DNA of 64,000 bases from Gluconobacter potus. GTDB lineage: Bacteria > Pseudomonadota > Alphaproteobacteria > Acetobacterales > Acetobacteraceae. Below are positions 29,568 through 47,099 of the stretch, one piece after another. Positions within the stretch are counted from its first letter, which is position 1, and the number at the start of each line of letters is the position of its first letter. The notes under the pieces were generated by a model, which was not told the origin of the DNA, ran no database searches, and saw only the letters and a list, made by a program, of their open reading frames with translations. Location of the stretch: the NCBI RefSeq assembly GCF_015244705.1, contig NZ_JABCQF010000006.1:62001-126000 (forward strand), given 5' to 3'. Both the position numbers and the translations under genes were made by a program.

Positions 29568-30253
29568 TAATTTTCCACCTTGATCCAGCCGATAACGCCC
29601 ATGGCCGCCGTCTGATCGACGGCACGGCAGACTGTCGCCAGATCTGCGGCCTTTCCCAGCTGTGTTTCTACAAAGAACTGACCACCCTGAAGGCTGCCGT
29701 AACGCAGGGCCGCCGCACCATAACCGTACCCCCCGCCCATGGCAGGCGCCGTTGCGCAGCCAAGGGCATGGCAGTCAGAAGCATTCAGGGTTTCAATGAT
29801 GACCGGCTGCACACCGGTCGCCGCAACAATCGCATTCGTCACGGCTTGACGTGTGTTGCGTTCGGCAAACAGCGAAGCACTGATGCGCTTGCGATAGACG
29901 GCATCCGTTTCGGAAGCCTGGCGGACCAGACCGCTTTCACCGAAATAATCGTCCGCAGCCATGTCCAGAAACGCACCGCTCATCGTCCCAAGGCGCATCT
30001 GCGGGGAACACTCCAGCATCAGTTGCCAGATACCAGCCAGGACAGCACCGACCCCGCGCAGAAGAGCCGCCAGTACTGGTGCGGCCTCCTCATCCAGCCC
30101 CTGCGGTTCTGAAGGAAACCACCCCTTGGGCAAAAGACGCCGGAGCCGGCCTGCGAAATCATCTATCGAACCGGGAGCCGGTCCCGTATCGAAAAGGATG
30201 CTTCCATCCGGTGCCCGGAGAATATCCCGGCCTTCGTCATAGAGAATACCCAT
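29567..30253 (-). CDS. Baseplate protein in the gpI position (DUF2612/tail protein I-like)
   Basis: 228 residues. The segment LRRLLPKGWF with the following helix-rich part and AERNTRQAVTNAIVAATG fits the gpI/DUF2612 baseplate proteins that join fibres to the baseplate wedge. It lies between two fibre-type genes rather than directly after gpJ. There is a four-base space to the upstream gene and a one-base overlap with the fibre. Exact family is moderately sure. Confidence 0.65.
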   Translation of the reverse strand: MGILYDEGRDILRAPDGSILFDTGPAPGSIDDFAGRLRRLLPKGWFPSEPQGLDEEAAPVLAALLRGVGAVLAGIWQLMLECSPQMRLGTMSGAFLDMAADDYFGESGLVRQASETDAVYRKRISASLFAERNTRQAVTNAIVAATGVQPVIIETLNASDCHALGCATAPAMGGGYGYGAAALRYGSLQGGQFFVETQLGKAADLATVCRAVDQTAAMGVIGWIKVEN

Positions 30254-30257
30254 CCGG

Positions 30258-31496
30258 TCATCCCCCAGCCTGGCTGGGGCTCATCAGCGGAATACGATAA
30301 TCAGCACCATTGACGTTGATATGGAGAAAACCGCCATCTGCCACAGTCGGCATCGTACCTCCGGCTCCAGTGACCGGTGACGTGATCTGAAGCTCTCCCC
30401 CGCTTGCGGGAAAAAGTCCCAGATTTCCGGAGCCTCCCGTCCCTTCCTGCACATACAGACCCGCTGCCTGCGTCCCTGCTCCCGCCTGAACCTGAAGCGC
30501 ATTGGTCGGGCTGGCCATGCCGGCAATCGAGAAGAGTGTTTCACCCTCGATATTGCCAAACAGGATTCCGTCATTGGTAAATTCCTGCCGCGTGCCACTG
30601 GTGCGTTCCGTTACCGTGGAACGAACAAATGCTCCCACATTGGCACCTGCCACACCGGAAACGGTCTCGGGCGTATGCCATTCGACAGCATGATTCCGCG
30701 CCAGAGAAACAGCTGACGCATATCCGGAATCCTTTCCATCTGTTCCCGTCAGGGACTGGGCACCGAAAACAATACCCGTCTGCCAGGAGTTCGGATTGGA
30801 AACGAATACTATTCCTGCCGCAGCATCGGACGTCCCCGACGTCTGGCCGCCACCCGCGCCAAGCTGAATTCCATACACGCCACCACCAACATTTGGCGCA
30901 TAAGGCGTGGACTGCCCCACCGCAAGGCCACCGAAATTGACAGCCTCAAGTTCCATCCCGAATGTCGGCTGGTAATCCACCCCTGCCATCCGCCACGCTT
31001 CACCATAATAGGCATAGGCGGTCGTGGTGGTAGGATTGGACGTGTCATCCGAAATTCCCCAGGACGCCACTCCGATGGAACTCGGCTGAAACCCCAGAAC
31101 CGAAGAACCACTCACCGCATCCGACGTCCGCGACCCCGCGACGAACGCACTGTTGCCGAACTGCGCAACCGACGCGCACTGAGCATCCTGCAATGCCCAG
31201 GGACCAATGGACGTCGCCGCCATGGTCTCCGACAGCCAGTCATTTTCCGAAGAACTGGCCCGGTCACTCAGAGCGGGATTTTCCGCCGCAACACCGACCA
31301 GAAGCCGGTCCGCAAAACGTTTTACCTGCGCACCCTTGTCGGCATAGAACTGACCACTGGCCGAAACGGTGACAGGAGCTTCAGTTACCTGCGCCACAGT
31401 CGCCGTCACTGTCCGTATTCCGCTGGCATCCGCCAGAACAAGGACCTCTTCTCCCGTCAGGGATTCGAGTTTCGGATATGTATTAAATACCGCCAT
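30258..31496 (-). CDS. Putative fibre or tail appendage protein between gpJ and gpI
   Basis: 412 residues, rich in Gly, Ala, Ser and Thr, with few charged residues and repeated short beta-type segments, for example TGIVFGAQSLTG and LYVQEGTGGSGNLGLF. A fibre or decoration protein is the best reading. It interrupts the usual J-I order. No enzymatic motif is visible. Spacing of 42 bases to the upstream gpJ-like gene. Confidence 0.6.
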   Translation of the reverse strand: MAVFNTYPKLESLTGEEVLVLADASGIRTVTATVAQVTEAPVTVSASGQFYADKGAQVKRFADRLLVGVAAENPALSDRASSSENDWLSETMAATSIGPWALQDAQCASVAQFGNSAFVAGSRTSDAVSGSSVLGFQPSSIGVASWGISDDTSNPTTTTAYAYYGEAWRMAGVDYQPTFGMELEAVNFGGLAVGQSTPYAPNVGGGVYGIQLGAGGGQTSGTSDAAAGIVFVSNPNSWQTGIVFGAQSLTGTDGKDSGYASAVSLARNHAVEWHTPETVSGVAGANVGAFVRSTVTERTSGTRQEFTNDGILFGNIEGETLFSIAGMASPTNALQVQAGAGTQAAGLYVQEGTGGSGNLGLFPASGGELQITSPVTGAGGTMPTVADGGFLHINVNGADYRIPLMSPSQAGG

Positions 31497-31538
31497 GAAA
31501 ATTCCTCATCCCTGCCGATGGATCCAGATTCCGGATCC

Positions 31539-32678
31539 TCAGCCCTGGGTGACATTGATCTGAATGCTTCCAACCACGAGCGCCTGATTGCCGTTGGCAG
31601 GAATATCAGCCTGCCCTCCATTGAGACGGACATTCAGAACCGACGTCACGGAGATCCCCGCCCCCGCATAGGCCAGGTAGGAGAGACGGCTGTACGGATA
31701 TCCGGCCCCCACGGTCATCGCGGCAATATCTTTCGACATGACAGACTGAATGGCGCTTTCTGCCTCCTGAACCGAAACGGAAGACGGCACCACAACATCC
31801 ATGGAAACATCCACCGTCAGAACCTGTGGGGCCTGCACACCAAACCCGACCCCAAGGGCCCGAACAGAATCAATGACTTCATAGACATTCGACAGCAGCT
31901 GATCCGAAGGCACCCCACTTCCGTCATTGACCACAGCCGTAAAGTATCCGCTCCGCGCAACACCCGCCGCATCGAGACCATCCCGGAGCGAATAACTCAG
32001 ATCCGTCTGGACATTGGCAATGGCATTCCCCACTGCGGCCCGACTGGCAGACGCCTTTGCCGCCAGCCAGAGCGGAAAACGCGCCCTCAACTGACTATCC
32101 GTCTCTTGGTCGGAGCCATTCAGGAAAGGCGCCGTATTCGTCACGGTATCCAACCCCGAGACCGCCGTTCCCATCAGGCAGATCGCACCGACCGAGACAT
32201 TTCCGGCCGCTCCCGCCTCTTGGCATGAAACAGGCACCGACAGCGTCGTCACACCTGCCGCCCGCACATATCCGCCAGCAGATGCGGACCATGTCGGCAA
32301 GGACTGATCCTGCGTCACGACAAAGGATATTCCTCCCACAGTGCGCACAATCACTCCGGGCGGAACAACAGCCGACTGCTCGCTGGCCATAAAGGACGTA
32401 AACGTCACAAGCCCTGTCGCCGGCGTTCCCGGCAGACGGGTCATGCCAAAATCATTGACGAAACTGTCACAGTCCGCCCCCGTCGACGTCGCAAGACGGG
32501 TCCGCAACAGCGACTGCAATACCAGATACTGCAACCACAATCCCACACCGCCGACACCTTCCATAAGCGCCCGCACAGGCGATCCGATGGAAACGTCCAG
32601 CAGTTGGGAACATGAGGCCTGCGCCGTTGTCACTGCAGCCGAAACAGTCGTGGAAAAGGAACGTAAGGAGAGAGACAT
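31539..32678 (-). CDS. Baseplate J-like protein
   Basis: 379 residues. The C-terminal two thirds carry the baseplate-J pattern: SGTPATGLVTFT-like, GAAGNVSVGAICLM, TNTAPFLNGSDQETDSQLRARFPLW and SRAAVGNAIANVQTD. These are hallmarks of gpJ wedge proteins of contractile tails (P2 gpJ, Mu gp47). The N-terminal 40 residues are helical. It follows the gp25-like gene by 44 bases. Confidence 0.9.
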   Translation of the reverse strand: MSLSLRSFSTTVSAAVTTAQASCSQLLDVSIGSPVRALMEGVGGVGLWLQYLVLQSLLRTRLATSTGADCDSFVNDFGMTRLPGTPATGLVTFTSFMASEQSAVVPPGVIVRTVGGISFVVTQDQSLPTWSASAGGYVRAAGVTTLSVPVSCQEAGAAGNVSVGAICLMGTAVSGLDTVTNTAPFLNGSDQETDSQLRARFPLWLAAKASASRAAVGNAIANVQTDLSYSLRDGLDAAGVARSGYFTAVVNDGSGVPSDQLLSNVYEVIDSVRALGVGFGVQAPQVLTVDVSMDVVVPSSVSVQEAESAIQSVMSKDIAAMTVGAGYPYSRLSYLAYAGAGISVTSVLNVRLNGGQADIPANGNQALVVGSIQINVTQG

Positions 32679-32722
32679 CGCATCCTCTTGGAGCGGTTCA
32701 ATACTGTGCCGCTCTCATCATT

Positions 32723-33082
32723 TCAGTAGGAAAAAGACAGGCTCTGCTGCTGACCGGATGCTGCATCGACATAAAACACGTCGCATCTGCAGACACCCCC
32801 GCCCTCATCCGTCACAGTCACTGTCACGGCCTGCGATGAATCCACCCCGGCATCTGCCTGAACCTGCGCCCGGATGACAGATTCCATCGCTTCCGGTGCA
32901 ATGACCTGACCGACCATGAGTGGCAGCCCCACCCCATAATCCAGCTGCCAGATATAATCCCCGGGAACAGTCAGCAAACGCCTCAACAGACTCTGCCTCG
33001 TCAGCTCCGTGCCAGAGACCGTCTGAAGCGTGCCGGAGTTCAGAACCAAATCGTTCCCGAAAACATGTGAAAGAGCGATCAT
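32723..33082 (-). CDS. Baseplate wedge protein, gp25/gpW-like
   Basis: 119 residues with the gp25-like core: QSLLRRLLTVPGDYIWQLDYG, followed by GLPLMVGQV, resembling the P2 gpW/T4 gp25 family that nucleates sheath polymerisation. It overlaps the spike gene by four bases. The protein is short but normal for the family. Confidence 0.85.
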   Translation of the reverse strand: MIALSHVFGNDLVLNSGTLQTVSGTELTRQSLLRRLLTVPGDYIWQLDYGVGLPLMVGQVIAPEAMESVIRAQVQADAGVDSSQAVTVTVTDEGGGVCRCDVFYVDAASGQQQSLSFSY

Positions 33083-33702
33083 CCAAGCGGTCCTTCCGTT
33101 TTCTGGCTTCCCAGCAGATGGACATGCTCATTCAGCGAATGCTGATCCGTACGCACATCCCCCCCCGAAACCGTTAACCCGGCAGATGTCAGGGTCATGT
33201 TTGTCCCACCGACAGAAAAACTGATGCCACCGTCCTTCAGAACAATCCGTGCATTTCCCGCACCCGCCGCCACACCAGCAGACCCGACATGCAGCCAGCC
33301 CGCTTCCGAAGACGTCGCCCCGGAAGCGTCTGACGAGGATACTGGCGGACGACCACACCCCCCTTTGACAAGCAGTTCTCCAGGCTGCGCAACGGCTCCG
33401 GTCAGGGGAGACACAGGCGCCATCACCACCGTGTCAAACACACCCCCCGTCACAACAAGATGCTCTCCGTCCCCCTCAACAGGCTGAAGAACAACATGCG
33501 TTCCAGGAGAAGACGGACACGCAATCCGCAGATCTCCCGCATGCACCCCGCCAGCATCCGGAATCCAGCCCGTTTCCACATTTTCAGGCTGGATCCGGAC
33601 CTTTACGGCATGATTGACAGGATCGACGGCTGAGACGATTCCAAACATCGTATGCGCCGTCCTGCCTTGAAGGGCAGCGGCATCAAAACGGGCATCACTC
33701 AT
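33079..33702 (-). CDS. Baseplate spike protein, gpV-like
   Basis: 207 residues. The N-terminal OB-like domain (FGIVSAVDPVNHAVKVRIQPENVETGWIPD split over several strands) and a repetitive beta-helical C-terminus (ISFSVGGTNMTLTSAGLTV) fit the membrane-piercing spike of contractile tails. The end, EHVHLLGSQKTEGPLG, contains histidines that could bind an apical metal ion, but I do not see the usual HxH site clearly. It overlaps its neighbours by four bases on both sides. Confidence 0.8.
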   Translation of the reverse strand: MSDARFDAAALQGRTAHTMFGIVSAVDPVNHAVKVRIQPENVETGWIPDAGGVHAGDLRIACPSSPGTHVVLQPVEGDGEHLVVTGGVFDTVVMAPVSPLTGAVAQPGELLVKGGCGRPPVSSSDASGATSSEAGWLHVGSAGVAAGAGNARIVLKDGGISFSVGGTNMTLTSAGLTVSGGDVRTDQHSLNEHVHLLGSQKTEGPLG

Positions 33703-34760
33703 GTCCCACCTCCGCGATCCCTCAGAACAACCTGCTGCACAAATCCCTGCTCCACGGAAAACCGGGAGATCACCTGATCAATCCCCAGCGTCTTTTCTCC
33801 ATTTCCCGTTACGACAGTCATGTAGTTTCTTGGCGCAATACCCGGCACACCCGGGATCCTGATCCGCACAGACAACGCATGCGCCGCAATACGTGCATGC
33901 TTGCCACGCGCCAGCCTTTGCAACTCGTCCAGCCGCCGTCCGGGAACACGAAAGGTATGGATACTGGCGTTTCCGGAAGGGGCGTCCTGAGAGAATGAAA
34001 CGCCATCATAATAAATCTGCGTCGTACTTCTCTGACGAGAATCCCACGATGCCATGTGCACAACCACACCAGACAGAAGCTGCAGATCCCGCGCAACACT
34101 GGTTTCAAGAACCGCGTTCCGCATGTCTGTAACCTGCACACCCGTATCGGACGAGGAACCCAGTGGCTGGCAGACAAGAGATGTTCCACTAGCGTAAAGG
34201 TCGCAAAAGGAATCCCGGGCAATCGTGAACGCAAGATCCGCCGCCGTCTGAAAACGATGCTGCCCCATGAGAGCACCGCGCTTATGCTCGATCTGCCAGA
34301 ACTGACCCGCCATAAGCGTAGCCTGATCAGAGGGGAGCGCAATCGCCGCATCCAGCCCCGCAGCCTGCGCCATGATTTCCAGCAATTCCTGCTGGGTATG
34401 GTTGAGCCACGCATCCTGAATCCGCAGATCCATCAGAGCCGCCAGCGCATCCCGGCATTCCATTTCCAGAACAGCATGCTCGGCCGCATATTCAATATGG
34501 TCGATCCGGCCCTCAAACAGCGTAGTCCACGAAGACAAAACGCTCTGCGTATCCCGCATCTGGAGGATCACCCACTTCCGGGCGGGTTGCTCCGTCTCAA
34601 ACCACAAAGCCTGCTGCGCCTGATCCCTGACGGCAAAACGCAGCGATGCGACATCACAGGCTTCATAGCGGTTCGCATCAATCTCGAACTGCAGAAGCGC
34701 CAGAACCGGATCAACCTGCCCATCAAAAAGAACCTGGACTTCCAGGTTTCTGACGCTCAT
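33699..34760 (-). CDS. Baseplate hub protein, gpD-like
   Basis: 353 residues in the position of the P2 gpD/Mu gp44 hub. WTTLFEGRIDHIEY, ALAALMDLRIQDAWLNHTQQELLEIMAQ and the C-terminal PGRRLDELQRLARGKHA fit this fold, which caps the tube and carries the spike. The family is inferred from order and local patterns. It overlaps both neighbours by four bases. Confidence 0.78.
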   Translation of the reverse strand: MSVRNLEVQVLFDGQVDPVLALLQFEIDANRYEACDVASLRFAVRDQAQQALWFETEQPARKWVILQMRDTQSVLSSWTTLFEGRIDHIEYAAEHAVLEMECRDALAALMDLRIQDAWLNHTQQELLEIMAQAAGLDAAIALPSDQATLMAGQFWQIEHKRGALMGQHRFQTAADLAFTIARDSFCDLYASGTSLVCQPLGSSSDTGVQVTDMRNAVLETSVARDLQLLSGVVVHMASWDSRQRSTTQIYYDGVSFSQDAPSGNASIHTFRVPGRRLDELQRLARGKHARIAAHALSVRIRIPGVPGIAPRNYMTVVTGNGEKTLGIDQVISRFSVEQGFVQQVVLRDRGGGT

Positions 34761-34969
34761 TCCAAAACCCCGTCAGGCAAACCCGATACCAGATCACTCT
34801 CGACTGCCGGCACCTTGAGCACGACAGTTTCGAAAATCCATCCCAGATCCGGATCCGTCATCCCGTTGACCTGCGCAATCCTCCACCATTGAGAAGCATT
34901 CCCCAGCTCACGCGCGGCCACATGAAACAACGAAATATCCGCAGCGCTGACAATAATATCCTGCATCAT
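34757..34969 (-). CDS. Small baseplate/tail protein, gpX-like
   Basis: About 70 residues, in the position of P2 gpX (LysM-like tail protein). LFHVAARELGNASQWWRIAQVNGMTDPD resembles the LysM-type fold of tail X proteins. Two overlapping start codons lie at 34969 and 34966, with GAGGA just upstream; the second has better spacing. A longer frame to 35026 overlaps the previous gene and is unlikely. Confidence 0.75.
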   Translation of the reverse strand: MMQDIIVSAADISLFHVAARELGNASQWWRIAQVNGMTDPDLGWIFETVVLKVPAVESDLVSGLPDGVLE

Positions 34970-34973
34970 GTCC

Positions 34974-35888
34974 TCATGCGAAAACGGACGGCAGAGACGT
35001 CGATTGCCCCTGCGCCACAGCAACATTCGCCGCAGAGCGATTCACCAGACTGCCCGCATCGGCCGCAGCGCTCAAAAGCGCCGCGTTCTGTCCCAAAGCG
35101 TTCAGTGAAACACTGTTGACCGGCTGAATGGCTTCAACATTCTGCCCGGCTCCGGTCAGAATGGACTGCAACCCACTCCCCGCATTTTCCAGCCCCCCGG
35201 CAACAGAGGTCAGCGCGGAAGGCACCGTAGCGAGATTCATACCACTCTGCGCCTCGCCGTTGACCGTCCCCAGAGCATCCGTCACCTTCGAGGCAAAACC
35301 CCCGGCACCGACAAGCGTCGCCAGCGGCATGACCTGCCCGACAACCGAAGACACCTGTCCCACCGCCGTAAAGACCCCTTCGGAAACATCCGAAACCACA
35401 CTGGAAAAACTGTCGAGAGCATTCCCGACATCATCTCCCAGCACTCCGGACAAAGTACCGGAAGTCTGTACAGCCGTCGTTTCCTGTGGTCGCTCAAGAA
35501 TCAGCGTATAGGAACAGACAGCGCCTTTTGCCTGGTAAACGTAATGAAACTGGGCAATCCAGACTTGAACGGAAAGCCCCGCAGCCGAAAAAGCAACCTG
35601 CTGCCCGGCCATCCGCATGCGTTCCACCGCCTGCGCCCGCATCTGCGCATCCGGACCAAGAAAGCGCCCTTTCAGCTCCAGTCGCCCGGGATCGTTGCCG
35701 AGCGCATCAACAACACGCCCCCCCCCCGGAAGACGATGCACAACCAGCATCTGCCGACCGCCAACCTGAAGCGTATCGGGAACTTCAATTCCCGTCAGAA
35801 CCAGATTTCCCAGTATGACAGGAGATGATGATCCCAGCCGCCCCACGGCACCAATGGCATTTTCGATGTCGGAAAGACCAATACCCAT
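34974..35888 (-). CDS. Tail/baseplate protein, DNA-circularisation (gpN) N-terminal-like
   Basis: 304 residues. The N-terminal 130 residues (VILGNLVLTGIEVPDTL, GGRVVDALGNDPGRLELKG, YVYQAKGAVCSYTLILE) look like the small beta-rich tail proteins related to P2 gpU and Mu gpN. The C-terminal half is a low-complexity Ser/Ala/Gly/Val segment (SVVSDVSEGVFTAVGQVSSVVG). A run of nine G residues in the coding strand at 35718-35726 encodes PGGGR and could be slip-prone. Confidence 0.6.
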   Translation of the reverse strand: MGIGLSDIENAIGAVGRLGSSSPVILGNLVLTGIEVPDTLQVGGRQMLVVHRLPGGGRVVDALGNDPGRLELKGRFLGPDAQMRAQAVERMRMAGQQVAFSAAGLSVQVWIAQFHYVYQAKGAVCSYTLILERPQETTAVQTSGTLSGVLGDDVGNALDSFSSVVSDVSEGVFTAVGQVSSVVGQVMPLATLVGAGGFASKVTDALGTVNGEAQSGMNLATVPSALTSVAGGLENAGSGLQSILTGAGQNVEAIQPVNSVSLNALGQNAALLSAAADAGSLVNRSAANVAVAQGQSTSLPSVFA

Positions 35889-35906
35889 CGGGGAACATCT
35901 CCTCTG

Positions 35907-36764
35907 TCAGAAAAATCCGATACTTCGACCCGGATACTGAGGTTGCATGATTTCATCCACGCCCCCGCCAGAACGTCGCGCCGCCAGACGGGACCTGCGA
36001 TTGCCGAACGAGAAATCATCACACCTCATTTCGTGATGCGCCTCACCATTCACAGTGTTCCTATCGTGATAATTCCGGAGCGCTGGAAAGGCTGGAAGCG
36101 CATCATGTCCTCGTCCAGCTCCTTCAGATGATGGCGCGTGCACAGTCTGTTTCCGCACTGGCGGAATGCAGGCCGAACCTTCATCCGCCAGTACTGCCCG
36201 GCGAACGACAGGAGACACACCCGCCGCACCATGCCTGATGCGCCTGACAGGCAATGCGCGCTCAATCATTCCCCCCCGACCCGGGAATGCCACCGCTCGC
36301 CCGACATCAGCAGCAGCCAGTTTCCGTGCCCCCACAGTCCGCCCCGATTTTGCATCCAATCGCTCCCACCGTTTCGGAAAAGCAGTCATCTCGTGCAAAG
36401 CCGCACGTATTCCCGCTTTTTCTGCAACAACGGAAAAAGGCTTCAAAGGAAGACATGGTCGCAGGATCCGCACCACCCGCTGTTTTTCCCGCACGGGAAA
36501 CAACACCGAATGAAATACTCCACCCGATTTACAAACAGGCGCAATCTCCTGGATGCCCTCTCTTCTTCGAAAGCCGCCACCCCGCAGCATCCTTCCGGAA
36601 ACCAGAGGCTCCCTGATGCACGACGGCACGATCCCAGCCTGTTTTTTCAACCGTGGCACAGCCGCAACCGGAAACGACCGATGCACCCACGCCAACCCTC
36701 TGGAAGAAGCTGCAAAAAACGTCCTGACCGAGAGAAGAGACCGCCAGATGTGCTCCCGCATCAT
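35907..36764 (-). CDS. Protein in the tape-measure position, unusual composition
   Basis: 285 residues. By position, after the chaperone and before the hub genes, this should be the tape-measure protein, but it is very short and rich in Arg, Gly, Pro and Ala, without the long coiled coil or hydrophobic segments such proteins have. No known motif is visible. The start ATGATG overlaps the stop of the frameshifted chaperone (ATATGATG), so translation is coupled. If it sets tail length at about 1.5 angstrom per residue, the tail would be near 43 nm. Alternatively the true tape measure has been lost and this is a remnant. Confidence 0.55.
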   Translation of the reverse strand: MMREHIWRSLLSVRTFFAASSRGLAWVHRSFPVAAVPRLKKQAGIVPSCIREPLVSGRMLRGGGFRRREGIQEIAPVCKSGGVFHSVLFPVREKQRVVRILRPCLPLKPFSVVAEKAGIRAALHEMTAFPKRWERLDAKSGRTVGARKLAAADVGRAVAFPGRGGMIERALPVRRIRHGAAGVSPVVRRAVLADEGSACIPPVRKQTVHAPSSEGAGRGHDALPAFPALRNYHDRNTVNGEAHHEMRCDDFSFGNRRSRLAARRSGGGVDEIMQPQYPGRSIGFF

Positions 36765-37248
36765 ATCTCTCCCCGATAACCCATCATATCCCAGTCAAAA
36801 CAGTGCCCTTCCCGCTCTCCGGTAATGACACACGCGGCCAGACGCCGCGCTCTCGACCATCCTCGCAAAACATCCCACGGCACGCCGTGATCCAGCAGAT
36901 AAAGCATCTCCTGGAACCCGGAGTGCCGGCTCAGTTTTTTGCGACGTCCCGAAGATCCTCATCCGCATCACGCTCGAAAAGCGGCGTCAGCGCAGCAATT
37001 CCGGCCTTGCCGATCCGACGGGCCAGATCGCGTATTTCATCCTTGGTCTGCGGCATCTGAACCGGCACACCATCAATGGCCGTCACCGAACAGATCATTT
37101 CCGCATAACCGAGCCATGCGGATGCCGACGCGCCATTGATCGCACTGCCAGCCGCCTCGATCAGATCCAGCATATCTGCCGGATCAATCTCGCGCAGCGT
37201 CAGACGGCGGTTGTCGGACAGAACAACTTCCTGCGGAAAATCACTCAC
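36761..37248 (-). CDS. Tail assembly chaperone, long form made by -1 frameshift
   Basis: The 105-residue zero-frame protein ends AKN-stop at 36931. The slippery heptamer A AAA AAC (36940 to 36934) is the last zero-frame codon pair before the TGA. A -1 shift reads on for 57 codons without a stop, beginning LSRHSGFQEMLYLL and ending FDWDMMGYRGEI at 36761, where TGA overlaps the start of the next gene. The fused product has about 162 residues, equivalent to the gpG-gpT type fusion of other tailed phages. No experiment shows the shift, but sequence, position and open frame agree. Confidence 0.75.
36931..37248 (-). CDS. Tail assembly chaperone, short form
   Basis: 105 residues, mostly helical: LREIDPADMLDLIEAAGSA, SASAWLGYAEMI and DEIRDLARRIGKAGIAAL. 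Size and place between tube and tape-measure gene match gpG-type chaperones, made in excess over the frameshifted form. The start overlaps the tube gene stop by four bases. Confidence 0.75.
   Translation of the reverse strand: MSDFPQEVVLSDNRRLTLREIDPADMLDLIEAAGSAINGASASAWLGYAEMICSVTAIDGVPVQMPQTKDEIRDLARRIGKAGIAALTPLFERDADEDLRDVAKN
36934..36940 (-). other. -1 ribosomal frameshift slippery site A AAA AAC
   Basis: Read on the minus strand in the zero frame as GCA AAA AAC TGA. It is a canonical X XXY YYZ heptamer placed directly before the stop codon of the chaperone gene. Confidence 0.8.
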
Positions 37249-37670
37249 GAAATCTTCGTCCTCGTAGAAGCAAAAAACTGAACCGTCTGATGGATCATGT
37301 GATCCGCCTGCCAGGGGTCACTCTTCATCTGCATGGAAACATTGCTGAATTCCCAGGTACTGGTCGTGCCATCCGGTTCGGTGACGTACTGATAGATCGT
37401 CCCGCTGCCGACCGTCCCTGCATTCCAGTATGCGGCTTCGACAGCAGCCACCAGATTATCCAGTGCCGCATTGGCGCGGGCAATCTGGAATGCCCCCCGC
37501 CAGCCATTGGGAACATTGAACTCCAGCGGCACCCCGTTCAGCGGATTTGCGCGCAGGGCCTGCGTTTCCTGGGCCGCACTGAAAGACGTGACATCCCTCA
37601 GATCGACGCGCTGACCATTCCACAGAACGGTAATCCGGCAATCCCGGCCAATGCTGTATGGATTTGCCAT
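37245..37670 (-). CDS. Tail tube protein
   Basis: 141 residues directly after the sheath gene, the usual order sheath-tube. The sequence has beta-rich stretches (ITVLWNGQRVDLRDVTSF, TWEFSNVSMQMKSDPW) fitting tube proteins of contractile phages. One-base junction with the sheath stop. Confidence 0.82.
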   Translation of the reverse strand: MANPYSIGRDCRITVLWNGQRVDLRDVTSFSAAQETQALRANPLNGVPLEFNVPNGWRGAFQIARANAALDNLVAAVEAAYWNAGTVGSGTIYQYVTEPDGTTSTWEFSNVSMQMKSDPWQADHMIHQTVQFFASTRTKIS

Positions 37671-39158
37671 TTAGCCGACACTCCCCGATGCAGAGGACAC
37701 GGTGACAGACGCACCACCCTGCAGATTGACGATGAATTTCTCGTTGATGCCCTGGTAGCGAACCGCCACATCCGCCTGCACATAGCCCAGCGCCGTGCGG
37801 GACTGCGGGTTATTGCTCGAATCACAGACCACACTGTAAGGCAGCTCACCATTCTGAACGCCCAGGATCCCCTGCGACAGCAGCGACGACAGAAAACCCA
37901 GAAGCGTCGAACGGATATCGCTGAACAGCGTGTCGTTGATCACCTCACCGACATAAGCGCCCATGCCACCCGCAAGCGAAGACGCAATATAGTTCGTCAG
38001 GCGCGTATAATTGTCGCCATTCATGGTGCTCTTGCTGGACGAATTATGCCCACAGCGCACCGCCCAGTAAGTGCCACCCGGCGCCGGATTGCAGATCACA
38101 TCAATCCCGGCCGTAAACAGCACTGACAGTTCAGCCGTGGAATAGGTCGCACTGCTGCCCGTCAGACCCGCCTTCTGGCTCCCCACGATCCCCGACAGCG
38201 CCTTGTTCAGACTGGACTGCTCCGGCGAAAGAGCGGCCAGCCTGCCCCCTGCAAATGCCTGCGGGCTGACCAGCATCATGCCGTTGGTATCATCATTCCA
38301 CCACAGCCAGTCACCGAACATCAGCTTGACCGACGCCGCATCCAGCCCACTCGCAGCCTTGACTGCAATCGCATTCGTCACCGTATCGGAAGCCAGCCCG
38401 ACAGCGATCATATAGACCCCTTCGGACGTCCCGAAAGCCGCCTGCGCCGTATAGGACGTGCTGTCCGTGACACCATGCAGCAGCGCCACCGCACAGCCCT
38501 GCCCGCGCAGCGCATACATACCGGTCCGCACCGTACTGTCCTGCCCGATGAACTGAGCCGTCGTCGGCACACCACCATCCGTACCGCCCGAAAGCGTCAC
38601 ACTCGCTGCTGCCACAGCCGGAACCGTCTCCGGAAGCACAACCTTCACCAGCGCATTCAGATCCTGCGCCACTGCCGCTGCAATGGCAGACCAGTCCGCC
38701 CCCGCATAGGTCGCCGCCCCCAGATCCGCATGCGTGACCGCAAGCGCATATCCAGAACCCGTAGCCGTCACGGCCGCCACGATACCATTACCCACGCTAC
38801 CCGTATGAACAGCCTGGATCGTCACGCCATCCAGCGTGCCGGATGCCGCCACATCCGTCCCGTCCGTCACCCGGACGACAACAAAAGACGATGCTTCCTG
38901 CATCACGGCGATATTGACCGCCAGACCTGCATCTGTCGTTTTGTTCTGCTTGGCGCCGAACGCCGCGACATAGTCGCTCATGCCCCCGATCGGCAGTGGC
39001 ATCCCCACAGGACCCCAGCCCGCAGTGCCCACAATGCCCAACTGCGAAGACGATGCTCCCGCCAGGGCCAGCGTCTGCGGCTGGGCGATCTGCACATAAA
39101 GATTTGGCACGGTCAGTGCCGTGGTATTCAGCGTTCCCGCCTGATAGACCAGAGACAT
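37671..39158 (-). CDS. Contractile tail sheath protein
   Basis: 495 residues from the ATG at 39158. The N-terminus (VPNLYVQIAQPQTLALAGASSS, LGIVGTAGWGPVGMPLPI) and the C-terminus (LGYVQADVAVRYQGINEKFIVNLQGG) are typical of phage sheath proteins. The middle carries a variable surface domain. A sheath gene shows that the particle is a contractile, myovirus-type machine. A long stem-loop lies just upstream in the mRNA. The frame can be extended to a TTG at 39176, which is less likely. Confidence 0.93.
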   Translation of the reverse strand: MSLVYQAGTLNTTALTVPNLYVQIAQPQTLALAGASSSQLGIVGTAGWGPVGMPLPIGGMSDYVAAFGAKQNKTTDAGLAVNIAVMQEASSFVVVRVTDGTDVAASGTLDGVTIQAVHTGSVGNGIVAAVTATGSGYALAVTHADLGAATYAGADWSAIAAAVAQDLNALVKVVLPETVPAVAAASVTLSGGTDGGVPTTAQFIGQDSTVRTGMYALRGQGCAVALLHGVTDSTSYTAQAAFGTSEGVYMIAVGLASDTVTNAIAVKAASGLDAASVKLMFGDWLWWNDDTNGMMLVSPQAFAGGRLAALSPEQSSLNKALSGIVGSQKAGLTGSSATYSTAELSVLFTAGIDVICNPAPGGTYWAVRCGHNSSSKSTMNGDNYTRLTNYIASSLAGGMGAYVGEVINDTLFSDIRSTLLGFLSSLLSQGILGVQNGELPYSVVCDSSNNPQSRTALGYVQADVAVRYQGINEKFIVNLQGGASVTVSSASGSVG

Positions 39159-39182
39159 CCCCGGATCGCTCTCCAAAATGCA

Positions 39183-39218
39183 GAAAGCGGGCGCTTCCGA
39201 CAGAAGCCACCCGCTTTC
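39183..39218 (-). promoter_or_regulatory. Stem-loop in front of the sheath gene
   Basis: On the minus strand GAAAGCGGG and CCCGCTTTC form a nine-base stem that continues, after one mismatch, with GGCTTC/GAAGC around a five-base loop. It is followed by TGCATTTT. It could be an RNA processing or stability element raising sheath and tube output, or a partial terminator. It lies about 25 bases before the sheath start. Confidence 0.5.
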
Positions 39219-39254
39219 CTGATGAAATTTCAGCGCTTTGATTCAGCTTCTGCG

Positions 39255-40238
39255 TCAGGCAGCAGCGACCACTGTCCCGAACTGATCAACCCCCAGCCCC
39301 GGATAGGCCGTAGCAGCAGCTTGTGCCGCCACCACCGCCTGCATGGCGTCCAGAGCCGCCGTTACCGTCTGGTTCGCTCCCCCGGGAGCCAGCTCCCCGA
39401 AAGACATCGCTGCCCCGCCCTCTCCAGAGAGGTTCCCGATGCCGCACAGCATTTCGGAAGCCCACTGCACCTGAAGGGTGTCAAAAACCAGCTCATAGAA
39501 ATAATCCCGCCGATACAGCGCCTCGTTCTGCATCGTGTCGACATCGTCCACGCTCTGGAACCGGAGCTGAGCCTCCCGCCCATCCAAAGTGCTGATCCAG
39601 CTCTGCTCCGCCAGCGCCGTATCCAGAACGGACGCCAGCGTCTCCCGCGCCGTCGCATCCGCAGTCCAGATCGAAACCCGATAAAGCTGCGCCTGCCGCC
39701 GCGTCACCCGAACCGACTGCCCATACCCACCAGCATGACCGTTCAGAACCCGACCCGGCACACGGACCGTCACCCCGCTCGCCACACCATCCGTCAACGC
39801 CGCCGCCAGAGCCGCCGCAACCGTCGCTGGCGTATCCTGCGCCGTCACCGCATAAGCCGCAGAAGGCGCACCTCCATGCGGCATGTCATCCAGCCAGACC
39901 GCCACCACACCCGCAGGCGTGAATGTCCCGGAAAAGACGATTTCAACCGTCCCATCCGCAACGACAACCCCAACCGTAGACTCAACCTTCTGCTGCACCC
40001 GCCAGGGCCGCCCCAGAGGTTCCGCCCATTCCGGCATTTTCCGGGGCGCCATGGTGACCGTGACGAAATCGATGTTGTTGCGGATATTCTGCGCCGCAAA
40101 AAGATCGCTCGGCAACAGCCACCCCCGCCGCAGCACCACCTGCCGTCCCGTCACCGAAGCTCCCGAAAGACCCTCCGGATAAAGGACCTGCGCACAGTTA
40201 TAGGCCAACGCCAGCCCGACCCTGGAGGCATCCGTCAT
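39255..40238 (-). CDS. Phage neck/tail protein of unknown family
   Basis: 327 residues between the connector-type genes and the sheath. Position suggests a tail terminator or neck protein, but the length is large for that. It has many Ala/Val-rich segments (ATVAAALAAALTDGVASGVTV) and a pair WTADATARETLASVLDTALAEQ / FYELVFDTLQ, resembling tail completion proteins. No confident family. The structural order, not a motif, carries this call. Confidence 0.55.
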   Translation of the reverse strand: MTDASRVGLALAYNCAQVLYPEGLSGASVTGRQVVLRRGWLLPSDLFAAQNIRNNIDFVTVTMAPRKMPEWAEPLGRPWRVQQKVESTVGVVVADGTVEIVFSGTFTPAGVVAVWLDDMPHGGAPSAAYAVTAQDTPATVAAALAAALTDGVASGVTVRVPGRVLNGHAGGYGQSVRVTRRQAQLYRVSIWTADATARETLASVLDTALAEQSWISTLDGREAQLRFQSVDDVDTMQNEALYRRDYFYELVFDTLQVQWASEMLCGIGNLSGEGGAAMSFGELAPGGANQTVTAALDAMQAVVAAQAAATAYPGLGVDQFGTVVAAA

Positions 40239-40250
40239 TCTTATCCTCCC

Positions 40251-40850
40251 TCAGACCTGCTGAAGCGACATGGTACACCGGATCCCGAACCCGGAAGTTT
40301 CCACCGCATTAACCGTATAAGTTGTGCCCAGATCAGTCGTGACCGTCATATAAGGCGTCAGCACCACCCCGGGCAGAAGCGGAAGATACATCACGGACTG
40401 TCCCGGACGCGTCGCGCCCGGAATCCCACTGCCCGAAGACTCCCCTTTCGCCCGCATGATAACGGCCGCCGGACAATCCGAGACCAGCGTCTCCACCGTT
40501 CCCGTAACCCCGCTGACTGTCACGGTCCGGCTGCACACCACACATAAAGGCGGCCGCAGAGGCTCCACGGACGCGACAAAATAGGTCCGCCCGTTTGCTA
40601 CAAGAATATCGGCAACCTGCGTATCATCCCGCCGATCCGTCAGGACATATTCCGTCGGAATCCCCCACCCGATCGGCCGTGCAAACGAAAAGCCGGCATC
40701 GACGTCAAAAGCCAGCATAGGCTGCGCATAAAGGGTTTCCATCGGCGACAGACCGCCCGAAGGACGATATTGTTCCCCCAAAGCCCCCAGAACGGCCGCC
40801 GCCTTCGCATACCCTCTGGAGAGCCTGGCCGCGATCATTGCCTGCTGCAC
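40251..40850 (-). CDS. Phage head-tail connector/neck protein candidate
   Basis: 199 residues from a GTG at 40850, chosen for GAGGAGG five bases upstream; the start overlaps the coding end of the upstream gene's neighbourhood by none. The middle is beta-rich (VLTDRRDDTQVADILVANGRTYFVASVEP). It occupies the neck position between connector-like and tail genes. No specific family recognised. Confidence 0.6.
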   Translation of the reverse strand: MQQAMIAARLSRGYAKAAAVLGALGEQYRPSGGLSPMETLYAQPMLAFDVDAGFSFARPIGWGIPTEYVLTDRRDDTQVADILVANGRTYFVASVEPLRPPLCVVCSRTVTVSGVTGTVETLVSDCPAAVIMRAKGESSGSGIPGATRPGQSVMYLPLLPGVVLTPYMTVTTDLGTTYTVNAVETSGFGIRCTMSLQQV

Positions 40851-40860
40851 ACAGCCCTCC

Positions 40861-41262
40861 TCAAACCACGATCGCCCGGCCGTCCTGCAATTCCAGACCA
40901 CCCGTCACGCCCAGAAACGCACACAGACGCCGCCGCCACAGCGTGAACAGCATCACCCGGTCCTGCACTTCCCGGCCATTGTGGTACCAGCCCGCAGCCC
41001 GCGCCGTATCCAGATTGTCTGACGCCGCCGTAATCGCGTTTTCCAGCGGATAAAGCTGCGACAGATAAAGCCGGATCTGCTGAAGCTCAGCCCCGGACAG
41101 ACAGTTCATCCGCCATTCCAGTGCCCCTTCCACCTGAAAGAAACGCCAGGATTCCTGATTACCTTCCCGCGCCCCGATCGCGGGATAACCACAGAACCGA
41201 CGGATATCCATTTTCTCTCCTTCCGAGAGAATATCCGTCGATAAACCAACCGTTCCGGACAT
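40861..41262 (-). CDS. Phage head-tail connector candidate
   Basis: 133 residues directly after the major capsid gene. LSGAELQQIRLYLSQLYPLENAITAASDNLDTAR forms helices as in connector proteins of the gp6/gp15 type that attach to the portal ring. The assignment rests on helix content and position. Confidence 0.55.
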   Translation of the reverse strand: MSGTVGLSTDILSEGEKMDIRRFCGYPAIGAREGNQESWRFFQVEGALEWRMNCLSGAELQQIRLYLSQLYPLENAITAASDNLDTARAAGWYHNGREVQDRVMLFTLWRRRLCAFLGVTGGLELQDGRAIVV

Positions 41263-41282
41263 GTCATTCTCCCCGCAAGAGA

Positions 41283-41307
41283 GGCCCCCGCCCTACAGAC
41301 AGGGGCC
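41283..41307 (-). terminator. Hairpin after the capsid gene
   Basis: GGCCCC and GGGGCC pair around a 13-base loop just past the capsid stop, followed on the minus strand by TCTCTTG. A partial terminator or mRNA-stabilising hairpin that favours capsid expression is possible. Confidence 0.35.
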
Positions 41308-41315
41308 GGAAAACC

Positions 41316-42695
41316 TCAGAACGTCAGACCAAGCGCATCCGTGCCAAGGCTCTCGATCACGACACCACGCTTGAGATAGCTGTTCGTGGCTGTCGGAATA
41401 ACGGTCATGTCGGCCGTCACGTCCGTCGGCAGCGCAAAACCGCCAATCCAGTACCAGGACTGCGCAATGATCTGGCGCAAACGATCCAGCGGCTCACGCG
41501 TGACCATCGCCACACTGTCCACCATCTCGATCAGCGCACGCTCGGAATCCGGAATATCGGAATGACCCGTCAGCGCGCAGTCACCCTCAATCAGCGCACC
41601 CTGCCCCAGCAGCAGCGCACGATGAATGGAACCGGAACCCAGAGACGCCTGCTGCGGCGCTTCCGTCGTCGGGATGAACCGCACACCCAGAAGCTCTATC
41701 ACCTGACCGGAACGATACTCTTCCGAACCATAAGCACCACGGTACAGATGCTTGAAATCCGGATCGCGAAACAGCGAAAGAAGCTGCAGATCATCCAGGT
41801 AACAGTGATATGCACCATTGATCATCGGCACGTTGTTACGCCGCAGCGTCGCCACACCGGCCAGAACCTGTTGGATGCCCAGCGTATCCGCCAGACCACT
41901 CGAGCTTGCCGTCTGCAGTGCCGCCGTTGTCAGACGCCCGTTCGGACGGATCACCAGCGGCGCCGTGGAGGCCACAACCGCCTGACCTTCCGTCCCATCC
42001 GCAACCGATACGGACGCCGAGAACGTCATCTGACCCGAAACACCGCCCGGCGCTGTGGACACATTCGTCGCATCCGCCGTCACACTGACAAGGGTGTAAA
42101 CATCCCCGCCCACCGTCACGGTCATACCATTGGTCGCGCTGATCGGCGTCACCTGACCATTCACGATCACGGACTGGAAACCGCGAATATCGTCCACAGC
42201 AATGGTGTCGCCAGCACTGCCCAGCGTTGCCGTCACACGCGTATTGCCGCCCAGATAGCCACCCACACCATTCTGCGCACCTCCAAACAGCGTATTGCGT
42301 GCCAGACGGTCCAGAGACTGCATGGCCTGCACACCATTGGTGTTGGCATTGGCCAGGAACTGCGACGCAATCCCCACGCCACTCGTGACCATGTTCAGGT
42401 CGATCGTATCGCCATACTGGTTGATGGACAGCGTATACTGCTCGATCGACCAGCCGGAGGGGCTCAGACCATTATCGAAATTCGTATTGCCCGTCGGGTT
42501 CAGCGGCGTCGTCACCGGAGCCTTGAGGCTTTTGCGGGTTTTCGTCAGCGTCTCACCGATGGCATTCGGGAACACTTCACGATCGGCAACCTGCCGGAAA
42601 CCCAGTCGGGATTTCAGACCATTCTCGAATTCGCGGGCCAGAAAACCCTGCTGAATGGCGGCCTGAAGCTGAACAGGAAAATTATCAATGCTCAT
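41316..42695 (-). CDS. Major capsid protein (N4 gp56-like)
   Basis: 459 residues from the ATG at 42695. LARNTLFGGAQNGVGGYLGG and the preceding IEQYTLSINQYGDTIDLN resemble N4 gp56-family capsid proteins with an HK97 fold. Residues of about 150-245 form a beta-rich, Thr/Val-rich insertion (TVTVGGDVYTLVSVTADA), probably a surface domain. There is no fused or adjacent protease; a separate scaffold-like gene lies upstream. A longer frame to 42737 has no good ribosome site. Confidence 0.85.
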   Translation of the reverse strand: MSIDNFPVQLQAAIQQGFLAREFENGLKSRLGFRQVADREVFPNAIGETLTKTRKSLKAPVTTPLNPTGNTNFDNGLSPSGWSIEQYTLSINQYGDTIDLNMVTSGVGIASQFLANANTNGVQAMQSLDRLARNTLFGGAQNGVGGYLGGNTRVTATLGSAGDTIAVDDIRGFQSVIVNGQVTPISATNGMTVTVGGDVYTLVSVTADATNVSTAPGGVSGQMTFSASVSVADGTEGQAVVASTAPLVIRPNGRLTTAALQTASSSGLADTLGIQQVLAGVATLRRNNVPMINGAYHCYLDDLQLLSLFRDPDFKHLYRGAYGSEEYRSGQVIELLGVRFIPTTEAPQQASLGSGSIHRALLLGQGALIEGDCALTGHSDIPDSERALIEMVDSVAMVTREPLDRLRQIIAQSWYWIGGFALPTDVTADMTVIPTATNSYLKRGVVIESLGTDALGLTF

Positions 42696-42766
42696 GTGTT
42701 TTTTCCGTAAATGTGTTTTCTGAACCCGGCCTGCCATCAGGCCCGGTCAAATATCGTCCCGGGCCT

Positions 42767-43282
42767 TCAGCCCTGGGCCAGAAACTGCCATTTGCGCGCT
42801 TCATAATCCGCCTCGCTGACGGCGCGCGCATTGAACGGTTCGATCCCGCCCGGGCGTGGCGCTACCTGCCCGACGGTGGTTCCGCTCGAATATCCGGGCC
42901 GCAGCACCTCGCCGAACAGATAGGCCCGCTCCTGACGCGCCTGCTGCAAAGCCTCGGCCACACCAACCACGGAGCCATCATCGCCCCGATTGATCCCTTC
43001 CAGATCAATCAGCCGCACGACATCATCAGGATTATGCGCACCATTGCGGATCGCCTCTGCCCGAAGCGCCGCCACAATGACTTCCCGGTCACTGTCCTGC
43101 CGCACCCGGGCCAGCGCTTCCTCATGACTGCGCTGAAGCGTCTCCTGCCGCATCACAACATCCGTCATTTCCTGACGAACCGCCTCAACCTCGCTCCGCG
43201 CTTCATTCAGCGCCCGACGCAGAGCCTCCACATCCTCAATGGTGTCATCAGTTCCGGACATCATTCCCCCGTCAACACTCAT
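42767..43282 (-). CDS. Putative capsid scaffold protein
   Basis: 171 residues. The N-terminal half is a predicted coiled coil (VEALRRALNEARSEVEAVRQ and QSHEEALARVRQDSDREVI-type heptads); the C-terminal part has HNPDDVVRLIDLEG and a Gly-rich stretch, the pattern of gp20-type scaffolds, where the C-terminus contacts capsid. Its position between portal and capsid supports this. The start overlaps the portal stop by four bases. Confidence 0.7.
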   Translation of the reverse strand: MSVDGGMMSGTDDTIEDVEALRRALNEARSEVEAVRQEMTDVVMRQETLQRSHEEALARVRQDSDREVIVAALRAEAIRNGAHNPDDVVRLIDLEGINRGDDGSVVGVAEALQQARQERAYLFGEVLRPGYSSGTTVGQVAPRPGGIEPFNARAVSEADYEARKWQFLAQG

Positions 43283-44697
43283 GCTTGTTCAGAAGCACAC
43301 CACTGCTCCAGCATTTTCCATTCCGTATTCGGATCAGAATTTCCCGATGCCATCGCAAACATCCGAACCGCCGTCTCGCGGCTCAGAATTCCATTGGAAA
43401 CCGCCGTCACCAGACCCTGCGTCAACGACAGCAGCTCTGGATCGGTAGACGGAAACCATGCCGGCCACCGCAGGCTCATGCGGCAGTACGGCAGGTCCTT
43501 GACCAGCGTTCCCCCGATCCGCAGCCCGTTTTCCAGAACACAGGAAAACCGGCACGCCATCCGGTAAATCGAGAGCAGTGCTCCCTCTCCGTAAGAATGC
43601 CGCAGACGATCCACCAGCCAGATCAGCGGCTGACACATCATCTCCATGGCCTTGCCCGACTGCGCACCACCAACCCGGTCGCCATGCGCCCGGTTGCCAT
43701 GCAGCTGCTCAAGTACCACCAGACGCAGCTCCCGATAATGATCGAGCACCGCCCCTGCCGCATTCCCGTTGATTTCCAGAAGCTTGGCATCACCTTCCGG
43801 CGGCAGCGTCAGCGCCGAAGCCGCCCCACCCTGATGCGCCACACCGTCGGAAAAGCCACCCGTCTTCAGCACCAGCGTCGGATCAGACCCGTATTTCAGC
43901 CCCCGACCTGCCTGTGACAGCAGATAATCCGCCTCGATCACCGTATCGATGGCCCGCTCGAACGTGCACTCACCTTCCGGATCACGCCCACAAGGCCCAC
44001 CCAGATTGCGTATCCACACGATGGGCACGAACCCCAGCCCATGCCGGACGGAGCGGCTCTCGTCCCGAACCCCGCCATCCATTCCCACCAGCCAGGGCAC
44101 GGACACCGCACAATCCAGCGGCGTCCAGATCCGCTGCCACCAGAACTGCGCCCCCAGAAGCTCATCCGCAATCGGATAGCCCTGCGCCGCCAGATCCCGC
44201 CCCCGGACCAGAAACCGCTCCTCGACCCGAAGCAGTACCCCCGTCGCATCATCCCAGAACGGCGTCAGATACGCCGTCTCCAGAACTGAGAGTTTCGGAA
44301 CCCCGGCCGAGACCTCGAACAGGATCGCAACCGACCCCACCGAACCCAGTCGCGCCGCTTCCATAAGAAGTGACGCCAGCCGGGTCTGCGACGCGAACGC
44401 GCTCAGGGCATGCGCCACCCGCGCATCATCCGTCACCAGACCCGGCCAGTGCGTATCCCCGAACAGCAGCGAAACCGACTCATCCACCACCGTCCGACAC
44501 AGATTTGTCCGCACCGAAGGACGCCGGCTCGACAGCGGGATGTATTCCCCCGCCCCCGACTTCTCCATCGAGAACGGATGCGGCAGCGCATCATACTGCG
44601 TCCCGTCCAGAACACGCTTGAGCGCCAGCAGCCGCGCCGTCCGCGCGGACGCACCCGCGGGAACAGCGTAACGCTGTTGCAGGGACAACCAGTCCAT
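43279..44697 (-). CDS. Phage portal protein (SPP1 gp6-like)
   Basis: 472 residues forming the DNA entry ring at one capsid vertex. NLCRTVVDESVSLLFGD near residue 65, FVPIVWIRNLGG and ADYLLSQAGRGLKYGSDPTLVL are typical of this portal family; SGKAMEMMCQPLIWLVDRLR is the helical wing. The start at 44697 has GGAGAACAC directly upstream. It lies 46 bases after the large terminase gene. Confidence 0.87.
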   Translation of the reverse strand: MDWLSLQQRYAVPAGASARTARLLALKRVLDGTQYDALPHPFSMEKSGAGEYIPLSSRRPSVRTNLCRTVVDESVSLLFGDTHWPGLVTDDARVAHALSAFASQTRLASLLMEAARLGSVGSVAILFEVSAGVPKLSVLETAYLTPFWDDATGVLLRVEERFLVRGRDLAAQGYPIADELLGAQFWWQRIWTPLDCAVSVPWLVGMDGGVRDESRSVRHGLGFVPIVWIRNLGGPCGRDPEGECTFERAIDTVIEADYLLSQAGRGLKYGSDPTLVLKTGGFSDGVAHQGGAASALTLPPEGDAKLLEINGNAAGAVLDHYRELRLVVLEQLHGNRAHGDRVGGAQSGKAMEMMCQPLIWLVDRLRHSYGEGALLSIYRMACRFSCVLENGLRIGGTLVKDLPYCRMSLRWPAWFPSTDPELLSLTQGLVTAVSNGILSRETAVRMFAMASGNSDPNTEWKMLEQWCASEQA

Positions 44698-44743
44698 GTG
44701 TTCTCCATTGTTTCAGGCCGCGATCCCGACCCGAACGGTCGGT

Positions 44744-46057: not shown

Positions 46058-46493
46058 CACTACTGATATTGATCGAAATCGTCCCCGAACGTCCCTCGGA
46101 CTCCATACCCGCCCTGAAACGGGATGGGCGATGCGCACGAAGCAGAAACGCCATCAATCCGTCGCTATAGCGTTTGCGAACAATGGGATTGCCCGTATCC
46201 GGATCGCAGACAACTCGCCCCGCATAGGTAATAGGCTCGTCATATCCTTCCACGGCGCGTCGACGCGCTTCCGCTTCAAGAGCATCCGCAGCCTCTTCCA
46301 GAGCCTCCTCCCACCGGGAAGAAAATTCCTTATCCGTATCTTTCCAGAGATATAACGTACTGCGCCGGACCTCAGCGACACGCCCGGCTTCAGAAATATT
46401 TCCACTCACAGACAGATGTTCGAGAAATCTTTTCTTCCGTTCCCAAGACTGTTCCCGTCGCAAAGAACATTTACCAGATACGTCTTCATCCAT
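46041..46493 (-). CDS. Terminase small subunit-like protein
   Basis: 150 residues from the ATG at 46493, with AAGG upstream. The N-terminal helix-turn-helix (LEHLSVSGNISEAGRVAEVRRSTLYLWKD) and a following Ala/Glu-rich helix are typical of small terminases that recognise the packaging site. The C-terminus ends in Ser/Asp. A TTG at 46532 would extend the frame but is unlikely. Confidence 0.8.
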   Translation of the reverse strand: MDEDVSGKCSLRREQSWERKKRFLEHLSVSGNISEAGRVAEVRRSTLYLWKDTDKEFSSRWEEALEEAADALEAEARRRAVEGYDEPITYAGRVVCDPDTGNPIVRKRYSDGLMAFLLRAHRPSRFRAGMESEGRSGTISINISSDDSAL

Positions 46494-46535
46494 CTGCTTC
46501 AACCTTTTTCCCCAGATCGCCCTGAGAACCAACCG

Positions 46536-46970: not shown

Positions 46971-46989
46971 AAATCAGGAAACTTCCAAA

Positions 46990-47020: not shown

Positions 47021-47057
47021 TCAGATTTTCATGTCGTAATTCTTCAGTATGCGTTTT

Positions 47058-47086: not shown

Positions 47087-47099
47087 CGATAATTTATCG

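Follow-up and report, generated by a model that had tools for sequence, protein, structure and literature searches.

In the analysed window, that is, the whole 64,000-nucleotide stretch of Gluconobacter potus DNA, a putative tail assembly chaperone gene very probably undergoes a −1 frameshift at the slippery heptamer A AAA AAC, by which both the chaperone and an extended fusion product would be made. The zero-frame product (105 aa, GTG start) is encoded at 36931..37248 on the minus strand and ends at the TGA 36933..36931. The 3′ end of this gene reads GTC GCA AAA AAC TGA, and the heptamer (36934..36940, minus strand), which holds a run of six A, lies directly 5′ of the stop. The −1 frame (36761..36934, minus strand) is open for 57 codons, from CTG 36934..36932 to 36764, and closes with the TGA 36763..36761, which overlaps the ATG 36764..36762 of the following ORF. 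These 57 codons, read after the slip, correspond to LSRHSGFQEMLYLLDHGVPWDVLRGWSRARRLAACVITGEREGHCFDWDMMGYRGEI, and the fusion product would have a size of about 162 aa, namely the 105-aa frame plus the 57 −1 codons. Both the gene end GCA AAA AAC TGA and the open −1 frame reaching the next ATG had been pointed out in a preliminary description of this DNA, and both are exact. Its proposal of a programmed −1 frameshift is supported by the conservation of site and extension in 103 of 106 places, by constraint at the codon level and by a conserved downstream hairpin.

First of all, the heptamer and the extension were followed in relatives. In the first set, 150 genomes of the same family were searched with the 105-aa product, and 66 places in 60 genomes, window included, were found and all retrieved for comparison. 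The heptamer abuts the stop in 62 of these 66 places, as A AAA AAC in 30 and G GGA AAC in 29, with A AAA AAT, A AAA AAA and G GGA AAT occurring once each; with L079, where G GGA AAC lies 18 nt upstream of a displaced stop, 63 of the 66 places carry a heptamer. For the second set, 150 genomes were drawn from the order and searched with a profile, which gave 63 places, 40 of them new. All 40 new places have the heptamer together with a homologous −1 extension, the heptamer being at the stop in 33, 18 nt before it in 3 and 39 nt before it in 4. Over both sets, window included, A AAA AAN or G GGA AAC/T with a homologous −1 extension is found in 103 of 106 places; the heptamer abuts the stop in 95 of them and precedes it by 18–39 nt in the other 8. 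Since site and extension are kept in these eight places as well, the adjoining stop is usual and not required. The preliminary description had named relatives losing the heptamer or the −1 frame with their tail genes intact as the observation that would speak against it, and 103 of the 106 places keep both.

The three remaining places differ from each other. In L094 (G143:C5) there is a homologous −1 extension, and the likely slip site is C CCT TTG, starting 25 nt before the stop. In the distant relative L095 (G001:C29) the homologous extension stands in the +1/−2 frame, which suggests that the shift has changed direction. Both heptamer and extension are missing in L096 (E = 9.6e-4), which looks like a chance match and is counted as a miss in the 106. 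In addition to the two genome sets, 80 of 286 IMG/VR loci found were examined as a third set, and site and extension were present in 77 of them. The exceptions are L160 and L183, which have the heptamer and fail the extension filter, and L178, which is without the heptamer. This set is not independent of the others, because it holds 57 distinct sequences that come partly from the same organisms. When the extension profile was searched class-wide, only the window's own genome matched among 289 genomes; at the sensitivity of that search and for its draw of genomes, the cassette is restricted to the family. Frameshifting of this sort in tail building is familiar from many phages; the conservation of the signal is unusually good here.

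The position of the heptamer before the stop is not a matter of chance, because an in-frame X XXY YYZ (Y = A or T) occurs at 71 of 74,438 codon positions of the upstream ORFs in relatives, against 62 of 66 places and 33 of 40 places at the stop in the two sets. Codon choice was examined in the 62 places of the first set whose heptamer abuts the stop, on which the structure and dN/dS analyses were also based. Given their amino acids, the product of the codon frequencies, taken from neighbouring genes, is 10^−98.6 over these 62, a value to be read with the fact that the 62 were chosen for having the heptamer. Elsewhere upstream, 4 of 39 A-K-N/A-G-N triplets form a heptamer. In the first set every Lys-Asn, Lys-Lys or Gly-Asn ending is accompanied by the matching third base in the preceding codon (NNA for the A class, NNG for the G class). 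In neighbouring genes, Ala GCA and Gly GGA each account for only about 10% of the codons of their amino acid. Moreover, a quickly built tree that holds 99 of the 106 places (L094–L096, L135, L137, L148 and L149 being left out) has about six changes in the class of the heptamer, although support is modest and the starred branches force only two changes. The matching third bases, the rare codons and the class changes together point to selection on the heptamer itself and not only on the peptide.

The extension is also under purifying selection, judged from substitution rates: its median dN/dS is 0.36, and 99% of pairs are below 1 (1644 of 1891 pairs with usable dS). Among 7 close sequences from the 17 places in the window's genus, dN/dS is 0.089 for the extension and 0.054 for the chaperone. 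An alignment of relatives had been proposed as a check for a conserved −1 frame with synonymous bias, and both were found.

A hairpin is predicted within the reading frame of the extension. In the window, it begins 5 nt after the heptamer with its 5′ arm (CGGCAC U CCG, 36919..36928, minus strand), which faces the 3′ arm (CGG C GUGCCG, 36878..36887, minus strand), and between them lies an inner helix (36891..36915, minus strand) in which 36915..36905 pairs with 36901..36891. In the first set the core pairing is (C)GGCACCCC with GGGGUGCC(G), starting 5–6 nt after the heptamer, and this spacing does not vary across the 62, which align without gaps. The core of the 3′ arm is GGGGUGCC in 87 of the 99 sequences used for the tree and GGCGUGCC in the window. 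At least 5 of the 6 core pairs occur in the minimum-energy folds of all 62 first-set sequences, with a mean of −31.5 kcal/mol. Stimulatory structures are as a rule stable, conserved and situated 5–9 nt after the heptamer. What is found here is a conserved and stable structure at the distance of a frameshift stimulator, and a putative role in stimulation may be assigned to it. Folding the bases downstream of the site had been suggested in the preliminary description as a search for such a structure, and the hairpin was found there.

Could the hairpin nevertheless be a by-product of the coding sequence and its GC content, with no stimulation, and the heptamer alone be used? This is improbable, although among the alternatives it fares best. 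On the one hand, the extension codons that form the arms are strongly biased: in the 62 sequences codon 4 is CAC in 58, codon 5 is CCC in 48, codon 17 is GGG in 61 and codon 18 is GTG in 62, whereas the frequencies in neighbouring genes lead to an expectation of 0.249 for GGG at Gly17 and 0.501 for GTG at Val18. Compared with synonymous resamples, the hairpin region has a mean z of −3.3, with 51 of the 62 below −2, and 115 of 6200 resamples are as stable; a later stretch of the same frame, used as a control, has a mean z of −0.26, with 3 of the 62 below −2. This synonymous-codon test, the constant spacing and the compensatory changes in the stem (within the window's genus, one pair is C-G in 4, U.G in 7 and U-A in 4 of 16 sequences) all speak against a by-product, and codon choice favours the hairpin beyond the needs of the protein. 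On the other hand, the hairpin of the window itself is mismatched and, taken alone, is not significant in the synonymous test: it folds at −31.0 kcal/mol, which 0 of 200 dinucleotide shuffles equal, but its z against synonymous resampling is only −1.5. The mismatch is peculiar to the window, which alone among the 16 genus sequences has GGC and not GGG/GGA in the 3′ arm at 36884, resulting in a U.C mismatch. A further point for a by-product is that six relatives have the heptamer without the hairpin. They form a divergent group (L126, L129, L130, L131, L136 and L143) with A AAA AAC/T and the extension and with no comparable hairpin; the stop after their heptamer is TAG in five and TAA in the sixth. 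Since these six are without it, and L122 folds differently, the hairpin is not universal. In IMG/VR, the stem is present in 75 of the 77 loci with site and extension and missing in 2.

The structure was also evaluated by covariation in three alignments, namely the first set, the second set (A4, 36 of its 40 places, without L135, L137, L148 and L149, whose slip site is 39 nt before the stop) and the window's genus (A5, 16 of 17 places, without L122, a second place in one genome). Paired cells make up 90.2% in the first set and 81.4% in the 36 of 40 second-set places, stemless rows included; in the 16 genus sequences the hairpin is 92.6% paired and 92.0% of the cells of the inner helix are paired. 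Both the percentage paired and the covariation score are higher than in all 500 shuffles in each of the three alignments, with the tool's warning that related sequences can exceed shuffles even without structure. The pairs changed on both sides are not above shuffles in any alignment (212, 281 and 394 of 500 reach the value). For further pair types, an excess is seen in the first set alone, where 15 of 500 shuffles reach the value, compared with 142 and 143 in the other alignments. In the second set, one slid version equals the real alignment in cells changed on both sides.

It is also conceivable that chaperone and extension are two separate genes, the extension having its own start and the heptamer being incidental. 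The GenBank records of the Komagataeibacter phages phiKX1 and phiKX2 are annotated in this way, with a second ORF from extension codon 7, and extension codon 18 is GTG in all 62 sequences. However, this GTG is invariant because it belongs to the 3′ arm of the hairpin. An ATG, GTG or TTG in the open −1 frame at most 70 nt before the stop is found in only 2 of the 62, and the first start-like codon within the extension wanders over codons 1–18, while several of codons 1–17 are nearly invariant. Moreover, a start of its own for the extension would leave the heptamer and the existence of two classes of it unexplained. Two independent genes are therefore very unlikely.

Another explanation is that RNA polymerase slips on the A run, so that −1 mRNA is produced. 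The window's site has six consecutive A, but a run of six A is short for slippage of RNA polymerase. In addition, the site is G GGA AAC/T in 30 of the 62 sequences of the first set, where no run exceeds 3 and both hairpin and spacing are the same, so transcriptional slippage cannot explain the G class, and for the window, too, we give it hardly any credence. A sequencing error or a decaying gene, which one genome alone could not have excluded, has already been refuted by the comparison with relatives, that is, by the retention of a slip site with a homologous extension in 103 of the 106 and by the low dN/dS of chaperone and extension in the 7 close sequences, and its probability is practically nil.

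Given the slip site, the open −1 frame under selection and the conserved hairpin that are observed in the sequences, we infer that slippage occurs, that its rate is that of a minority event, and that the two products have distinct roles, in the following manner. Most ribosomes would read A AAA AAC and stop at the adjoining UGA, giving the 105-aa chaperone. A minority would be held up by the hairpin 5–6 nt downstream and would slip back by one base, with tRNA-Lys and tRNA-Asn slipping in tandem on the heptamer (in the G class, tRNA-Gly and tRNA-Asn); the slipped ribosomes would then read 57 more codons and produce the fusion. By analogy with gpG and gpGT of phage lambda, the role of the short form may be to coat the tape measure, and that of the longer one to recruit the tail tube subunit. 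A Shine-Dalgarno-like stimulator was also looked for 6–20 nt before the heptamer, and AGGA, GGAG or GAGG is present in 29 of the 62 sequences, compared with 8.4 on average for 20 control windows. It is not claimed as a part of the signal, two of the 20 control windows having reached 30.

Taken in this way, the mode of action would be that of lambda G/GT, and the system another case of a type of phage tail frameshift that is already known. It has been reported, in the available text of PMC5009743, that frameshifting in chaperone genes is widely conserved among long-tailed phages, that gpG and gpGT are made in lambda at about 30:1, and that the T part binds the tail shaft protein. The likeness to lambda lies in the chaperone gene beside the tail genes, the −1 slip near its 3′ end and the fusion product (PMC5009743), while the window differs in that its heptamer ends in AAC, that the heptamer usually abuts the stop, that a conserved hairpin follows and that the tail is contractile. 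It counts against the frameshift reading that E. coli slips much less on A AAA AAC than on A AAA AAG, as stated in the same source (PMC5009743), which also mentions the same two heptamers, AAAAAAC and GGGAAAC, as reported in haloarchaeal viruses. The Caulobacter phages phiCbK (AAAAAAC) and Colossus (GGGAAAC) are similar in heptamers, in having the chaperone before the tape measure and in their alphaproteobacterial host, but they are siphophages with tape measures of 1,964 and 2,155 aa, according to the available text of PMC3556154, where a hairpin is not mentioned. For an HK97-like chaperone cluster, the available text of a prediction study gives measured values of 6% and 7% in two genes (PMC3711429). 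The distance from slip site to stop averages 26 and 36 nt in the two phage sets of a prediction tool paper, as far as its available text goes (PMC10885494), so the adjoining stop stands at the short end.

The name of the zero-frame product needs to be judged separately. Neither of the window's two products matches a Pfam family, and the 62 chaperones and 62 extensions of the first set have only scattered weak Pfam matches. The zero-frame product falls into phrog_20383 (E = 1.7e-15), a PHROG family without a function; among the 62 extensions, 7 match phrog_21699, likewise without a function, and two other families are matched by one each. Run against PDB sequences, the chaperone profile had 4 matches, all with E of 0.5 or worse. 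The AlphaFold2 models of both parts are confident, with a pLDDT of 87.9 for the zero-frame part and 91.2 for the extension. For the zero-frame part, the top PDB match in Foldseek is the HK97 tail assembly chaperone 2ob9, a weak likeness (E = 0.25, TM about 0.42) that is suggestive only. Among predicted viral structures, its top match, at E = 1.2e-5, is a protein without a name; next come a baseplate hub subunit at E = 0.020 and, at E = 0.031, the chaperone of a Rhodococcus phage. For the extension, the fold search of the PDB returned nothing below E 3.8. Since the match to 2ob9 is suggestive and the extension is without a credible match, the chaperone call rests mainly on gene order and the frameshift. 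The gene follows the sheath gene, identified by PHROG, and the putative tube gene, placed by its position. That is to say, the designation as tail assembly chaperone in the preliminary description is favoured by gene order and the weak fold match, but not by any Pfam family, and remains putative; the gpT-type look ascribed there to the extension was not borne out, no named protein being matched in sequence or fold.

The nearest named homologues are in the Komagataeibacter phages phiKX1 (L098 = LC644975) and phiKX2 (L097 = LC644976), which share the heptamer, the adjoining stop, the hairpin and the extension. The cassette of phiKX2 differs in its setting: the phage genome is complete, it includes a transposase gene, and the place of the tape measure is taken by an ORF of 742 aa. 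Chaperone and extension are recorded in both genomes as two hypothetical proteins, and the frameshift is not annotated, that is, the fusion product has been missed in both annotated phage records examined. phiKX1 is named in PMC8566455, which deals with the temperate phages of acetic acid bacteria and in whose available text the word ‘frameshift’ does not occur. In the literature on Komagataeibacter phages, tail-chaperone frameshifts and gene transfer agents of the family, a description of the cassette or the cluster was not found among the matches listed, judged by their titles and the openings of their abstracts.

The cassette is located in a head–tail cluster (28311..47959, minus strand) with terminase, portal, scaffold, major capsid, sheath, putative tube, chaperone, baseplate and fibre-like genes. 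Directly upstream of the chaperone gene lies the putative tail tube gene (37245..37670, minus strand; called by gene order, its family phrog_12993 being of unknown function), and before it the tail sheath gene of a contractile tail (37671..39176, minus strand; phrog_23 tail sheath, E = 2.6e-45). The next ORF after the cassette (35907..36764, minus strand, 285 aa) may encode a very short tape measure protein; it has no Pfam or PHROG match and is tape-measure-like only by its position and the stability of its length. In the 7 close sequences, the ORF in this place is 281–297 aa long with a dN/dS of 0.62 (20 of 21 pairs); its C-terminal VDEIMQPQYPGRSIGF is conserved, and its length is kept while the sequence drifts.

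The cluster region, taken as 28311-48449, includes a divergently oriented HTH regulator, and its counterparts in other genomes are L230–L249. The order regulator, terminase, portal, capsid, sheath, baseplate and fibre is collinear in 6 of 10 other genomes (G131, G079, G022, G025, G008 and G149), in which the regulator has 78–88% identity. The far flank, with a cytochrome c gene and two further genes, is shared in 4 of the 10 (G022, G025, G008 and G149); G079 has two of the neighbours without cytochrome c, and G131 has none. In G086, G060, G062 and G140, portal, capsid and tail genes are in the same order with no match to the regulator, and the terminase match is missing in G062 and G140. As for tyrosine integrases, 0 of the 11 matches in the window's genome lie on the contig of the cluster. 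The cluster appears to sit at the same chromosomal site in several genera, it is likely to be inherited by descent like a host gene, and it has the look of a domesticated particle and is a candidate gene transfer agent. The gene transfer agent groups that are recognised are described in PMC9662315, in whose available main text words starting with ‘Acetobacter’ do not occur. To a broader proposal we give an even chance: the cassette would work in a contractile gene transfer agent or domesticated particle, inherited at one constant chromosomal site among acetic acid bacteria and, less strictly, throughout the family; the lineage of the host would have preserved the frameshift with its two products and its codon-constrained hairpin, and the tape measure would have shrunk to about 285 residues, free in sequence and hardly varying in length.

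Aligned with each other, the relatives form a natural series in which the class of the heptamer, the place of the stop and the hairpin each vary on their own, which makes them useful for studying what determines the rate of −1 frameshifting in bacteria. The finding also suggests a function for proteins that match only phrog_20383. Should the cluster prove to be a gene transfer agent, particle production in acetic acid bacteria would become accessible through the ratio of chaperone to fusion product.
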